In this document: in pieces, positions 6,432 to 11,110 of the stretch
Layout: each line of letters opens with the position of its first letter
How positions within the stretch are numbered: the first letter of the stretch is position 1
Source: Alphaproteobacteria bacterium MarineAlpha9_Bin3
GTDB lineage: Bacteria; Pseudomonadota; Alphaproteobacteria; TMED109
Length of the DNA: 42,955 nt
Assembly: GCA_002937655.1 (NCBI GenBank)
Contig: PTKH01000009.1
Location: forward strand, 1-42,955
Reading direction: 5' to 3'
The notes under the pieces: model-generated
Database searches by the model: none
Told to the model about the DNA's origin: nothing
The model's input: only the letters and a program-made list of their open reading frames with translations
Position numbers and translations under genes: made by a program

Positions 6432-6995
6432 TTGGAAAATAAATTTATTGATTATCTTGAGGAGTTTTCAAGTAATTTAGATTATTTGAAAGAAAATTTG
6501 TTTGAAGAAATTGAACAAACAATTAACTGTATAAAAAATAGTCTAAATTCTGGAGGAAAGATTATTTTTTTTGGTAATGGAGGATCTGCCTCTGACAGTC
6601 AGCATTTATGTGCTGAGTTTGTAGGTAGATATAAAAAAAATCGTGATCCTTTACCTGCTATATCCCTAAACACAGATACTTCCATCTTAACAGCAGTTGC
6701 AAACGATATGGGTTATGAAAAAGTCTTTGAAAGACAAGTTCAGGCTTTAGCAAAAAAAGAAGATTTATTATTTGCTATATCCACTAGTGGTAAAAGTAAA
6801 AATGTTATTAACGCCGTAATTGCTGGAAAAAAGAAAGGTATTAAAATTATATCACTTACTGGAAAGCATGATAGTGAGTTGTCTTCTTTATCAGATATTT
6901 CAATAAAAGTGCCTTCAAATAAAGTAAATCATATTCAGGAAATGCATATTTTGATTGGTCACTTTATATGTGAAATGATAGAAGATAATATATAA
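6432..6995 (+). CDS. gmhA: Phosphoheptose isomerase GmhA (SIS domain)
   Basis: 187 residues. Isomerises sedoheptulose 7-phosphate to D-glycero-manno-heptose 7-phosphate, the first step to the nucleotide-activated heptoses used in LPS core or surface glycans. The SIS-domain sugar-phosphate loop GNGGSASDSQH is at 48-58, catalytic Glu62 is in LCAEF, and His177 near the C terminus matches the essential histidine of characterised GmhA. TTG is the only possible start; upstream the frame is closed, and an out-of-frame ATG (6420) opens only a 7-codon frame over it. No other heptose-pathway gene lies in the window. The stop abuts the converging secreted-protein gene. Confidence 0.93.
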   Translation: MENKFIDYLEEFSSNLDYLKENLFEEIEQTINCIKNSLNSGGKIIFFGNGGSASDSQHLCAEFVGRYKKNRDPLPAISLNTDTSILTAVANDMGYEKVFERQVQALAKKEDLLFAISTSGKSKNVINAVIAGKKKGIKIISLTGKHDSELSSLSDISIKVPSNKVNHIQEMHILIGHFICEMIEDNI

Positions 6996-7349
6996 TTATT
7001 CTGTATATTTACATTCAGCAGTAGCTATTAATTTCATCTCGTGAATTTTTCTTCTTGCTTCTCTTATAGTTAAATATACTTTTCCTTTAGGTGGTTGTAT
7101 ATAATTTTCGCCAAATGCTAAAACTTCTTCTTCTTCGCTTAACACAAGACAATTTACTAGTTTTTTAATTTTTTGATCTCCAATTTCGACATCAATTTCC
7201 ATGATTCTGGGGCATAAAAGTACTTTACTTTTCTCTAAAATAGAACATTTTGGTGGATATAACTTGTTTATAACTATATTTGATTCTGCTATAGTGTAAT
7301 TTTTCATACTAAAATATAATATAACTATTAATATGGATCTGAAGAACAT
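6996..7349 (-). CDS. Secreted four-cysteine protein, paralogue B
   Basis: 117 residues with a signal sequence (about 1-21, ending TIAES). The mature part carries four cysteines at about 35, 46, 67 and 113, spaced like those of the neighbouring paralogue, plus the shared blocks YPPKC, LCPRI, SEEEEVLAFGE and KVYLT. I recognise no named family. The even number of conserved Cys and export signal suggest a small disulfide-bonded periplasmic protein. It is last in a minus-strand operon; its start lies inside the end of paralogue A (22-nt overlap). Its stop touches the gmhA stop. Confidence 0.7.
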   Translation of the reverse strand: MFFRSILIVILYFSMKNYTIAESNIVINKLYPPKCSILEKSKVLLCPRIMEIDVEIGDQKIKKLVNCLVLSEEEEVLAFGENYIQPPKGKVYLTIREARRKIHEMKLIATAECKYTE

Positions 7350-7678
7350 TTAGCACCCGCAATCAAAGTTAATCCATGAATTCTAGTTCTAGTTCTTAAT
7401 GTTAAATATATTTTTCCACCTGGCTTTTCTAAAAAAGATTCACCAAACGCTAATATTTCCTCTTCTTCGCTAAATAATGTACATCTAACTAAATGTTTAT
7501 TTAAGTCTCCTTTAATTTCTACTTCTACTTCAATAATTCTTGGGCACAAAAGGCCATTTTTTTCTTCTAATAGAGTACATTTTGGAGGATATACTGTTTT
7601 TACTTTAATAGGGTTGTCTGCATAAGACATGTTTATAAAAAAATAATTTAATATCAAAGATATAAACAATATTTTCAT
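7328..7678 (-). CDS. Secreted four-cysteine protein, paralogue A
   Basis: 116 residues from the ATG at 7678, which overlaps the stop of the upstream flavoprotein gene as ATGA, so the two are very likely translationally coupled. It has a signal sequence (about 1-20, ending SYADN) and cysteines at 34, 45, 66 and 111. Shared blocks with paralogue B include YPPKC, LLCPRI, SEEEEILAFGE and KIYLTL, which shows a tandem duplication followed by divergence. The family is unknown to me. The conserved acidic SEEEE run could bind a cation or basic partner; that is speculation. Confidence 0.7.
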   Translation of the reverse strand: MKILFISLILNYFFINMSYADNPIKVKTVYPPKCTLLEEKNGLLCPRIIEVEVEIKGDLNKHLVRCTLFSEEEEILAFGESFLEKPGGKIYLTLRTRTRIHGLTLIAGAKCSSDPY

Positions 7679-8262
7679 GGTGCCAACCAACACATAGAAA
7701 TATTTTTACTTAATTCAAATTTTGCACGCCTATGTCCAGAATGAATTAAGTATAACCAATCTAGACTTTTAATAAGTATATCTATCCTTCCAAAGTTAAC
7801 TTTATATTTATTTAAATCTTCATTTTGAATATTTTTGAGACTATTATCTATATCCTCTGGTTTTGATATAGTTGTGCTAGGTGGATAAGGAGTAGAATAA
7901 CACTCTCTACTCATACTAGGAGTAGAATCCCACGCTGCATCCCATATTTTATTTTTATAGTTTAAAATTGCTGATCCTATTATTCTAATTTGAATTTTTT
8001 TATTTGGTTCATAAATGCTAACAGATATTTTTTTATTATTTTTTATTTCTAACCACTTTTCCGAACGAATGTCTGTATTAAAAGAAATAATATTATTTTC
8101 TTTATTAATTTTTCTTAATACTACTGTTCGAGATGAGGGGTATCCATTTTTATCTATCGTGGATATAATTGGATAGTGAAAAGCGGATTTAGTATTTTTA
8201 ACCCCATCTTTCAGATCATTCCAAATTTGATTGTAAATTTCATTTAAAGTCATATTTTTCAT
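7675..8262 (-). CDS. PNPOx-like FMN-binding flavoprotein
   Basis: 195 residues of the pyridoxamine 5'-phosphate oxidase-like split-barrel family. Supporting blocks are PIISTIDKNGYPSSRTVVLR (FMN-binding strands, about residues 30-50), the NTDIRSEKW segment near 77-85 and a C-terminal HSGHRRAKF element. It is shorter than canonical PdxH and lacks the usual PdxH substrate motif, so it should not be called PdxH without testing; it resembles the broad Alr4036-like group of general FMN proteins. It is first in a three-gene minus-strand unit with the two secreted four-Cys proteins and diverges from the crotonase gene across a structured 200-nt spacer. Confidence 0.78.
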   Translation of the reverse strand: MKNMTLNEIYNQIWNDLKDGVKNTKSAFHYPIISTIDKNGYPSSRTVVLRKINKENNIISFNTDIRSEKWLEIKNNKKISVSIYEPNKKIQIRIIGSAILNYKNKIWDAAWDSTPSMSRECYSTPYPPSTTISKPEDIDNSLKNIQNEDLNKYKVNFGRIDILIKSLDWLYLIHSGHRRAKFELSKNISMCWLAP

Positions 8263-8289
8263 TTTACTAATATAAAATATATTTAAGAA

Positions 8290-8329
8290 GTAGAAAAGTT
8301 AATCTAGATAAAAAGAAAAACTTTTCTAC
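8290..8329. repeat. 11-bp perfect inverted repeat
   Basis: GTAGAAAAGTT at 8290-8300 and AACTTTTCTAC at 8319-8329 are exact reverse complements separated by an 18-nt A/T-rich loop. There is no T-tract on the plus side, so it does not look like a terminator for that strand. It lies between divergent genes, where an operator or RNA hairpin is possible. Confidence 0.6.
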
Positions 8330-8358
8330 CCCAACTATACGTTTTGCGTAATTAGGGG
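8329..8358. repeat. Imperfect CCCC/GGGG hairpin with inner TACG/CGTA stem
   Basis: CCCC (8329-8332) pairs with GGGG (8355-8358), and TACG pairs with CGTA around a five-base TTTTG loop, with mismatches between the two stems. It shares its first base with the 3' arm of the preceding 11-bp inverted repeat, so the two could form consecutive or competing structures. Confidence 0.4.
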
Positions 8359-8465
8359 AATCTATTTGCAAAACTGTACAAAAAATCTACGATTTTAATT
8401 TTAATTTAGATTGTGTATAATTATATTTTAATTAATATTAATACTTAATATATAGGAGATTAAAG

Positions 8466-9254
8466 GTGTTAAAAAAAACTGTTATTTTAGAAAAGAAAAA
8501 TAATATTGCGATAGTTACTTTAAATAGGCCTGACAATGCAAATGCTATTAATTTAGATCTTGTAAAAGATTTATATGATGCCTTTAAAGATTGTCATCAC
8601 GATGATGGCATTAGAGCTGTTGTTTTTACTGGAAGTGGATCGATGTTTAGTGGGGGAGGAGATCTAGGTTCTTTTCTTGCAGAGTCTGATAATTTAGGCC
8701 CATTCATTACAGATATGACTACTTACTTTCATTTGGCTGTTACTTTAATGCATAGAATGGAAAAACCGATTATAGTTGCATTAAATGGAACTGCAGCAGG
8801 AGGAGGTTTAAGTTTAGCTTTATCAGGCGATATTATTATTTCCTCTGAAAATGCTAAATTTTCTGCTGCATATACTGCTGCTGGTTTATCACCAGATGGT
8901 TCTATGACATACATTATGCCCAGACTTATTGGATTAAAAAAAACAAAAGAATTAATGATTTCTAACAGAAGGTTTACTGCAGATGAAGCTTTAAATATGG
9001 GGATTATAGATCAAGTAGTTAAAGAAGAAGATCTAAACACTATAGCTATTGAAAAAGCAGAAGAGTTATCAAAGGGCGCGACTAAGGCTTTTGGTGCTGT
9101 TAAAACACTGCTGGCGGATAGTTTCTCAAGTACATTAGAGAGTCACTTAGAACAAGAAGCAAGGTCTCTTAATATAAGAGCACAAGGGCATGACGGCAAA
9201 GAAGGTGTAAAAGCTTTCATAGAAAAAAGAAAACCAAACTTTAAAGGATACTAG
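8466..9254 (+). CDS. Enoyl-CoA hydratase/isomerase (crotonase), PaaG-like
   Basis: 262 residues. Crotonase-fold enzyme acting on a CoA thioester. The two oxyanion-hole segments are visible: SGGGDL at about 62-67 and GTAAGGGL at about 108-115. Where hydratases carry a catalytic Glu, this protein has GLSPDGS (about 140-146), with Asp144, the arrangement seen in PaaG-type isomerases; a classical 2-enoyl-CoA hydratase role is therefore less likely. The start is GTG with AGGAG 7 nt upstream. The dehalogenase gene follows 12 nt later on the same strand, so the two may share a transcript. Confidence 0.87.
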   Translation: MLKKTVILEKKNNIAIVTLNRPDNANAINLDLVKDLYDAFKDCHHDDGIRAVVFTGSGSMFSGGGDLGSFLAESDNLGPFITDMTTYFHLAVTLMHRMEKPIIVALNGTAAGGGLSLALSGDIIISSENAKFSAAYTAAGLSPDGSMTYIMPRLIGLKKTKELMISNRRFTADEALNMGIIDQVVKEEDLNTIAIEKAEELSKGATKAFGAVKTLLADSFSSTLESHLEQEARSLNIRAQGHDGKEGVKAFIEKRKPNFKGY

Positions 9255-9266
9255 ATAGGTAAAATT

Positions 9267-10142
9267 ATGAACGTAACTGAGCATTCTAAATCTAAAATAT
9301 TAGTTAATAATAAAAATATGGCATATGTTGAGATGGGGCATGGAGAAACTATGTTGTTTCTTCATGGAAATCCAACTTCTTCGTATTTATGGAGAAATAT
9401 TATGCCTTATTTTTCTAATAAAAAGAGATGTATAGCCCCTGACCTAATTGGCATGGGTGATTCTGAAAAACTAGATACAAATGATGAAGGAACCTATAAT
9501 TATTTTGAACATCAAAAATGGCTTAATGATTTTTTAGAATTATTAAATCTAGGTAATAAAATAATACTAGTTCTTCATGATTGGGGAAGTGCTCTAGGTT
9601 TTGACTGGGCAAGTAAGAATATTGATAGGGTTGCAGGAATAATTTATATGGAGGGAATAGTATGCCCACTAACCTGGGATAACTGGGATGAAAAATCTGC
9701 ACCATTATTTCAAGCATTTAGGTCTGATGCTGGAGAGAATATGATCATCGAAAAAAATATATTTGTTGAAAGAGTACTACCAGGCTCTGTTTTAAGAGGA
9801 TTAACTGAGGAAGAAATGGAAGTATATAGAAGACCATTTTTAAAGAAAGAAGATCGTCGACCAACTTTAGACTGGCCAAATCAAATTCCAATAGATAATG
9901 AACCAAAAGATGTAGTTAGTGTTGTTGATAAATATTCCAAATTTTTAAGTAAAAATAATACTCCAAAATTATTTATTAATGCTGAGCCTGGAGCTATTTT
10001 AATTGGTAAACAAAGAGAATTTTGTAGATCTTGGCCCAATCAATCTGAATTTACTGTACCAGGAAGTCACTTTATCCAAGAAGATTCTCCTGATTTAATA
10101 GGTGAAGGTATACTTAATTGGTTAAATTCAGAGAAGTTATAA
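9267..10142 (+). CDS. Haloalkane dehalogenase (HLD-II type)
   Basis: 291 residues, the usual length of DhaA/LinB enzymes. Hydrolyses carbon-halogen bonds through an Asp-ester intermediate, releasing alcohol and halide in the cytoplasm. The full HLD-II pentad is visible: Asn35 in HGNPTS and Trp106 (halide stabilising), Asp105 in LHDWGS (nucleophile), Glu129 in YMEGIV and His268 in GSHFIQ (LinB: N38, W109, D108, E132, H272). PDLIGMGDS and INAEPGA also match the subfamily closely. Alternative functions among alpha/beta hydrolases are unlikely given these residues. It sits 12 nt after the crotonase gene, and its end overlaps the next small secreted-protein gene by 25 nt. Confidence 0.93.
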   Translation: MNVTEHSKSKILVNNKNMAYVEMGHGETMLFLHGNPTSSYLWRNIMPYFSNKKRCIAPDLIGMGDSEKLDTNDEGTYNYFEHQKWLNDFLELLNLGNKIILVLHDWGSALGFDWASKNIDRVAGIIYMEGIVCPLTWDNWDEKSAPLFQAFRSDAGENMIIEKNIFVERVLPGSVLRGLTEEEMEVYRRPFLKKEDRRPTLDWPNQIPIDNEPKDVVSVVDKYSKFLSKNNTPKLFINAEPGAILIGKQREFCRSWPNQSEFTVPGSHFIQEDSPDLIGEGILNWLNSEKL

Positions 10143-10465: not shown

Positions 10466-11110
10466 TTATTTTCTTATAGCAGATGAATTTAAAGTAACCT
10501 CATTTTTATATGACCAGCAGGCAGTATAATTACCAGTCCAACCTCTGCCTTCTTTTTTAAGATTATCAAATCTTACTTTTCTAAATGCAGCATGGCATCT
10601 GCCACATGATAGAGCTAGCATACATACAGATCTCTTAATGCTCTCAGGATTCTCTTCTTCAAAAGCTTTATTTAAATTCCTGGAAGCGTGCACAGCATCT
10701 GAATAATATCTATTAAATGCTTCTGGTATAATCCAAACTAATCGTTCTGCATTGGTGGATTTTACATGTGCAACACTTGTTTTACGAGGCCAGAAGTCTT
10801 GAACTTGAGCTAAAAGGTTATAAATTTCTATACCATCTTGCTTAGCTTCCCTTGCATGAATTAATGAATAAGTTTCTAGAGGTTCCATTTTATTCTGATT
10901 ACTTATGATAATTGTAGACCCATCAGAGGAAGTTACAGCATCACCCGGAAGAGCAATAAGTGTTGCTAATCTCTCTAATCTAGTCCACATTGCCTGCATT
11001 GCTTGCTGTCTAACATCTACCATAGTTTGCTTTTCTTCTTCAGCAAAAGAAAAATTTATACTAGATAAAAAGATGACTAAAGTGATTAAAATATTTAATA
11101 TAATTTTCAT
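10466..11110 (-). CDS. Periplasmic class II c-type cytochrome-like protein
   Basis: 214 residues. A signal sequence ends near FSFAEEE (about residue 23), and a single heme c site CGRCH lies at 169-173 on a late helix, as in cytochrome c'/c-556 four-helix proteins. The N-terminal RQQAMQAMW helix (34-42) offers methionines that could be the distal heme ligand. Unlike typical members, about 40 residues follow the heme motif, including an extra Cys near 198. It probably transfers electrons in the periplasm; the partner is not evident. ATG start with AGAGG upstream. It is transcribed alone, facing the Sel1-repeat gene across about 97 nt. Confidence 0.75.
   Translation of the reverse strand: MKIILNILITLVIFLSSINFSFAEEEKQTMVDVRQQAMQAMWTRLERLATLIALPGDAVTSSDGSTIIISNQNKMEPLETYSLIHAREAKQDGIEIYNLLAQVQDFWPRKTSVAHVKSTNAERLVWIIPEAFNRYYSDAVHASRNLNKAFEEENPESIKRSVCMLALSCGRCHAAFRKVRFDNLKKEGRGWTGNYTACWSYKNEVTLNSSAIRK

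Follow-up and report, generated by a model that had tools for sequence, protein, structure and literature searches.

Two small minus-strand genes, whose products appear to be exported and share four spaced cysteines, lie in tandem behind the gene for a PNPOx-like flavoprotein in the window (the whole 42,955-nucleotide stretch of Alphaproteobacteria bacterium MarineAlpha9_Bin3 analysed here). The original prediction recognised no family for the two proteins and proposed an undescribed, lineage-specific periplasmic system coupled to the flavoprotein. The locus thus raises the question of what the two proteins are, how far they extend beyond this genome and whether the flavoprotein belongs with them. 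The genome falls in TMED109, which PMC8879329 describes as a GTDB order near Rickettsiales, with a warning of long-branch attraction. The genomes analysed include 28 of this order, all of one family; its genera are referred to as g1 to g8, g1 being the genus of the window. The genes at the centre of the question are:

6432..6995, plus strand: gmhA-like SIS isomerase, convergent with A
6996..7349, minus strand: A, exported four-Cys paralogue of 117 amino acids, starting inside the end of B
7328..7678, minus strand: B, exported four-Cys protein of 116 amino acids from its ATG, first gene of the tandem pair
7675..8262, minus strand: PNPOx-like flavoprotein (Pyridox_oxase_2, PF12766, E 8e-16), head of the operon in g1 only
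8466..9254, plus strand: divergently transcribed member of the enoyl-CoA hydratase family, kept close to the four-Cys gene in g1, g4 and g7 (in g7 behind one presumed SDR-like gene)

The PNPOx-like gene, B and A form one overlapping minus-strand run, with the convergent gmhA-like gene on its 3' side and the divergent enoyl-CoA hydratase gene on its 5' side. At the PNPOx/B junction, CACCATGAAA, the TGA stop and the ATG start share ATGA, a 4-nt overlap; the frame of B is open further upstream to a GTG at 7693. The stop of B ends at 7328 and the ATG of A stands at 7349, giving an overlap of 22 nt. A and B are 49% identical over 105 amino acids (E 6e-36); 500 shuffles of A averaged a local score of 28.8 (sd 5.3, maximum 51), compared with 252 for the real pair. 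Both proteins begin with MK and a hydrophobic stretch ending in YA/D and IA/E, which by eye we judged to be Sec-type signals. In the mature parts the cysteines occupy positions 14, 25, 46 and then 91 (B) or 92 (A), and all four are invariant in the 18 homologues aligned, at identities down to 28%; another two, both from G003, were excluded from the alignment on account of N in the public sequence. An even number of conserved cysteines behind a signal peptide, the latter again judged by eye, is what a two-disulfide exported protein would have. For ten ortholog pairs, simple Nei-Gojobori estimates of dN/dS were 0.036-0.081 for the mature part of B and 0.032-0.307 for that of A, the top value coming from a pair with a dS of just 0.06; the mature parts of both are under purifying selection. 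Since the overlaps recur, the two are paralogous, the cysteines are invariant and selection is purifying, A and B are, judged from their sequences, real genes. When the ORFs, overlaps, paralogy and cysteines were rechecked, the original description of the pair proved correct in every detail: the ATGA and the 22-nt overlaps are both present in every g1 genome that has the pair (the window's and five more), and the proteins are indeed four-Cys paralogues, with export read from the sequence.

We found no known family to which A and B could be assigned. Neither matched any family in Pfam or NCBIfam up to E 1, let alone at a curated cut-off, and the best Pfam value for any of the 18 aligned family members was 0.15. 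The family profile yielded nothing credible among PDB sequences, its single match (dynein tail, E 1.6) being attributable to chance. In PHROG, A weakly matches phrog_30076, of unknown function (E 0.0045), and B reaches E 0.25. PADLOC had no match for A or B, and a defence role sought through it was dropped. No relative was found in viral contigs, nor any match in phage and plasmid searches with B, and on these searches a mobile origin of the pair was rejected. No description of the family appeared among the papers listed by full-text literature searches, with subscription journals and preprints mostly outside their range.

The distribution is narrow. In the window's own genome the pair represents the sole copies; a would-be third copy on contig C23 (E 0.007) was dismissed as chance, its ORF resembling what we take to be ATP synthase delta, as was a match on contig C12 (E 0.6, with stops inside). 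The family is present in 14 of the 28 genomes of the order, as the pair in 6/7 genomes of g1 and as a single copy in g4 (1/1) and g7 (7/7). None was detected in the 13 genomes of g2, g3, g5, g6 and g8, where g2 and g6 are represented by one incomplete genome each and the g8 genomes are 54-75% complete. In the seventh g1 genome (G004), a 3351-bp contig with the cytochrome c'-like and 115-aa genes described below ends before the four-Cys locus. Wider samples, not comprising all genomes of either rank, gave 4 of 385 genomes for the class, all of the window's taxonomic family, and 1 of 398 for the phylum, which was the window's own genome. A short-peptide-pattern scan of B over 84,980 species, which detects close relatives only, returned six loci, in g1 and g4. 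Within what was searched, the four-Cys family is therefore confined to one narrow lineage, and the original view of it as lineage-specific and outside recognised families has held: Pfam, NCBIfam and PDB gave no match and PHROG only a weak one, while profile searches of the order, class and phylum sets added no relative from outside the order.

The single-copy homologues bear on the history of the pair. Those of g7 retain the cysteine spacing; the one compared (G018) is 34-40% identical to B copies versus 28-31% to A copies, and the g4 protein 55-59% versus 46-48%, so that by sequence the single-copy proteins compared are more B-like than A-like. In the tree the A copies group together (100/99), and the A/B duplication is older than the sampled genus; long branches surround the g4 split, which may have come before or after the duplication. 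A has evolved faster than B (60% versus 81% mature identity for the same genome pair), and in the five genomes free of N, 14 mature positions are constant within each paralogue and different between A and B.

Structure prediction, which the original prediction had put forward as a check, produced an all-beta sandwich. The AlphaFold2 model, from the 18-row alignment, has 8 strands (pLDDT 82.1, pTM 0.73). With a threshold of E 0.001, Foldseek retrieved nothing from either PDB or BFVD; PDB values were 0.04 or worse, and the best among the viral structures of BFVD, 0.046, was not usable. Realignment of the Foldseek list with VIA-align gave assorted Ig-like and beta-sandwich domains, with a top Z of 7.6 (rmsd 3.0, 79 aligned). 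Seven to nine strands in a two-sheet Greek-key sandwich define the Ig-like fold, to which the 8-strand model can be referred only tentatively; its matches to Ig-like domains are middling. We take the predicted fold to be of a general Ig-like or beta-sandwich type, with no relative that could be named, a Z below 8 and Foldseek E values of 0.04 or more making the fold class a common arrangement and not an assignment. Domains of hantavirus envelope proteins were also among the best VIA-align matches, and we read this likeness too as the common sandwich arrangement and not as kinship. From the strands that bear the cysteines in the model, the most likely disulfides are C14-C25, which would close a hairpin, and C46-C91, which would join neighbouring strands.

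Whether the flavoprotein is part of the system can be judged from loci where either gene occurs alone. The PNPOx-like gene adjoins the four-Cys gene in six of the 14 genomes with the family, all of g1, and in the other eight (g4, g7) it does not. Conversely, in eight genomes of g3, g5 and g8 a homologue of PNPOx was detected (E 3e-18 or lower) and no four-Cys gene. In all five such loci that were read (G010, G014, G008, G026 and G016), PNPOx sits between gmhA and enoyl-CoA hydratase in a run of genes of the same direction, namely queF (a label that we assume here), gmhA, PNPOx, enoyl-CoA hydratase and hydrolase; the G016 contig is truncated inside queF. PNPOx is flanked by at most about 40 nt to either side, too little to conceal a four-Cys gene. 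The gmhA-like and PNPOx-like genes are 0-8 nt apart at these loci. Because the two are adjacent in g3, g5 and g8, the PNPOx-like enzyme may belong with the gmhA or que genes, and not with A and B. The flavoprotein shows no signal peptide on inspection by eye and would stay in the cytoplasm, and it is probably not a functional partner of the pair. We accordingly gave up the flavoprotein link as a general rule, adjacency being limited to one genus and PNPOx occurring without the pair in three others. A constant absence of the flavoprotein beside the homologues, which the original prediction had named as a finding against it, is what we saw outside g1, but not within g1; conservation of the flavoprotein as a neighbour did not extend beyond this genus.

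An older neighbourhood is found on the other side of the divergent enoyl-CoA hydratase gene, where the window continues with:

9267..10142, plus strand: alpha/beta hydrolase, above the cut-off of the haloalkane dehalogenase model NF002938
10118..10465, plus strand: 115-aa exported two-Cys protein ('IESAAH'), a predicted four-helix bundle with the presence and absence of the four-Cys family
10466..11110, minus strand: exported cytochrome c'-like protein (PF01322, E 1e-10; CGRCH)

The hydrolase, encoded at a chromosomal locus that is conserved in this marine lineage, passes NF002938 clearly (409.7 versus 241 bits). Common to g1, g4 and g7 is the series cytochrome c'-like, 115-aa, hydrolase, enoyl-CoA hydratase and four-Cys gene, the last divergent from the rest of the series in every locus read. 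The g4 locus lacks PNPOx and has the four-Cys gene flanked by enoyl-CoA hydratase and gmhA. In the three g7 loci read it is divergent from SDR-like, enoyl-CoA hydratase, hydrolase and 115-aa genes, with the cytochrome c'-like gene next. The outer neighbours vary, with gmhA in g1 and g4 and an rplU/obg-like side in g7 (SDR-like and rplU/obg-like being labels that we presume). By gene order, the older neighbourhood appears to consist of the cytochrome c'-like, 115-aa, haloalkane-dehalogenase-like and enoyl-CoA hydratase genes, PNPOx having joined only in g1.

Of these neighbours, the 115-aa protein follows the four-Cys family most closely. Profile search placed it in 15 of the 28 genomes of the order (g1 7/7, g4 1/1, g7 7/7) and in none of the remaining 13, apart from a match in G022 (E 0.04, two stops) that we took as chance; the four genomes of the class sample that have it are also the four with the four-Cys family. 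The two families are present and absent together. The cytochrome c', 115-aa and four-Cys genes share one contig in 5/7 genomes of g1, 1/1 of g4 and 6/7 of g7, the three exceptions (G002, G004, G021) being loci broken by contig ends. The hydrolase tree separates g1, g4 and g7 from g3, g5 and g8, so the co-inheritance may reflect one evolutionary event, a single gain or loss, and carries limited weight; the enoyl-CoA hydratase tree puts g4 elsewhere (89/91). In g3, g5 and g8 cytochrome c' is also present outside this locus and is thus not tied to the four-Cys family; an exclusive co-occurrence was discarded on account of these shorter forms. The form of g1, g4 and g7 is longer, those of g3, g5 and g8 matching only residues ~3-55 and 86-198 of its 214. 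The 115-aa protein matched no family by sequence; a four-helix bundle was predicted for it with confidence (pLDDT 93.3).

Upstream of the PNPOx-like gene lies one further conserved element:

8284..8418, minus strand: leader of PNPOx-B-A, conserved, with three hairpins, folding better on the minus strand, without an Rfam match

Column identity across it is 83% in the six g1 genomes, and for five of the six the synonymous sites of B show pairwise differences of 21-74%. The loop of the middle hairpin carries a conserved TTCCCCTA. Against shuffles, the minus-strand fold had z values of -5.1 in the window and -7.2 in G002, compared with -3.5 and -3.7 for the plus strand. Three pair changes (GC to GU twice, AU to GU) stay paired only as minus-strand RNA, becoming A-C mismatches on the plus strand, and two pairs have changed on both sides, on either strand. 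Rfam gave no match over 8200-8480 even at E 1, and none at the gathering threshold; over the whole window at gathering it found only a tRNA and SAM_alpha, elsewhere than the leader. The SAM_alpha riboswitch lies at 7-84 on the minus strand (38.4 versus a gathering score of 36 bits), its downstream gene being beyond the window. An RNA model of the leader recovered just its six training loci (20 sources, of 95 loci plus the window), apart from antisense matches to the palindromic stem, weaker ones, at five of the six. A promoter scan found 10 sites against 13.1 in shuffles, no excess, and we therefore claim no promoter. The leader is possibly a cis-regulatory RNA or an operator, and the RNA reading is just a lead because covariation from six sequences is thin and a DNA operator would explain the palindromes equally well. 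If real and ligand-responsive, such an RNA would point directly to the signal that the operon senses.

Taken together, we hold with middling confidence that the four-Cys protein is a lineage-specific periplasmic protein with an Ig-like fold and two disulfides, duplicated in g1 and joined there to the PNPOx transcript, with a probable accessory or binding role. A and B would be exported by the Sec route to the periplasm, each as a single Ig-like beta-sandwich of about 96 residues that two disulfides probably brace. The family would have been inherited vertically in one order, occurring singly in two genera and in tandem in g1, where the pair came to lie behind the PNPOx-like gene, with which it is probably translated jointly. 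Its role, we infer, is that of a small periplasmic binding or accessory protein, acting with the exported products of the old neighbourhood, namely the 115-aa four-helix protein and, less certainly, the cytochrome c'-like one; that these particular proteins are its partners is at best doubtful. It is improbable, although worth stating, that the whole represents an order-specific periplasmic module of TMED109-type alphaproteobacteria (Ig-like four-Cys, four-helix 115-aa and cytochrome c'-like proteins), of which one genus duplicated the four-Cys part and brought it, along with the PNPOx-like gene, under the control of a cis-regulatory RNA leader of a kind not yet described.

Several other readings were weighed against this one. 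A and B might be the obligate halves of a heterodimer or co-polymer, derived by duplication of a single-copy gene for a homodimer and followed by specialisation of the partner surfaces. Retention of the tandem pair in six of six genomes, the 14 positions fixed per paralogue and the equal output favoured by the gene overlap all agree with this, but the faster evolution of A could mean that A is drifting to another role, and we regard a heterodimer as possible, if rather unlikely. In a joint system as originally envisaged, the flavoprotein and the two exported proteins would cooperate, perhaps as a redox or cofactor relay whose components are kept in ratio by translational coupling. Such a system would account for the identical overlapping gene run in 6/6 g1 genomes with the pair and for their common conserved leader. 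It would place its components in different compartments, however, and it is contradicted by the eight of 14 genomes where the family lacks an adjacent PNPOx and by PNPOx homologues without the family (8/14); we consider it very unlikely. Secreted inhibitors and immunity proteins are generally small, exported, disulfide-bonded and narrowly distributed, and the four-Cys protein, with its size, export, two likely disulfides and restricted range, would pass for one, whether akin to lysozyme or protease inhibitors or serving self-protection. Yet Pfam, NCBIfam and PADLOC contain no match, inheritance is vertical beside metabolic genes with no toxin gene among the neighbours read, and B shows purifying selection and not the signal of an arms race, which leaves an inhibitor highly improbable.

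A protein family absent from the libraries tested is hereby defined, together with a co-inherited second family, in an uncultured marine lineage of small genomes. Few dispensable genes survive in streamlined genomes, which makes small exported orphans that are strongly conserved by purifying selection reasonable places to look for new periplasmic functions; outside the TMED109-type lineage the impact is modest.

Among known systems, the PNPOx-like neighbour passes the cut-off of PF12766 and falls far under that of TIGR04026 (Npun_F5749; 51 versus 220 bits), whereas the four-Cys proteins match neither model. The 115-aa protein differs from the type II secretion pilotins GspS, PulS and AspS in having no sequence match and a Foldseek E of 0.7 or worse. 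It has four helices in common with them, and PulS and GspS are among its first structural matches (6hcg, Z 6.9, rmsd 4.1, 84 aligned; 3sol, Z 6.9, rmsd 3.8, 82 aligned), with a Z that is weak for a helical bundle and is tied by Dps and ferritin-like chains. The Ig-like and beta-sandwich domains of PDB differ from the four-Cys proteins in sequence (4-19% identity among the matches listed, all with Z below 8) and resemble them in arrangement: the top VIA-align match, the porphyran-binding CBM 8wae (Z 7.6), is an all-beta sandwich over most of the model, and the same all-beta arrangement is seen in the GH3 and GH2 sandwich domains and in domain 3 of HAP2, also among the top matches.
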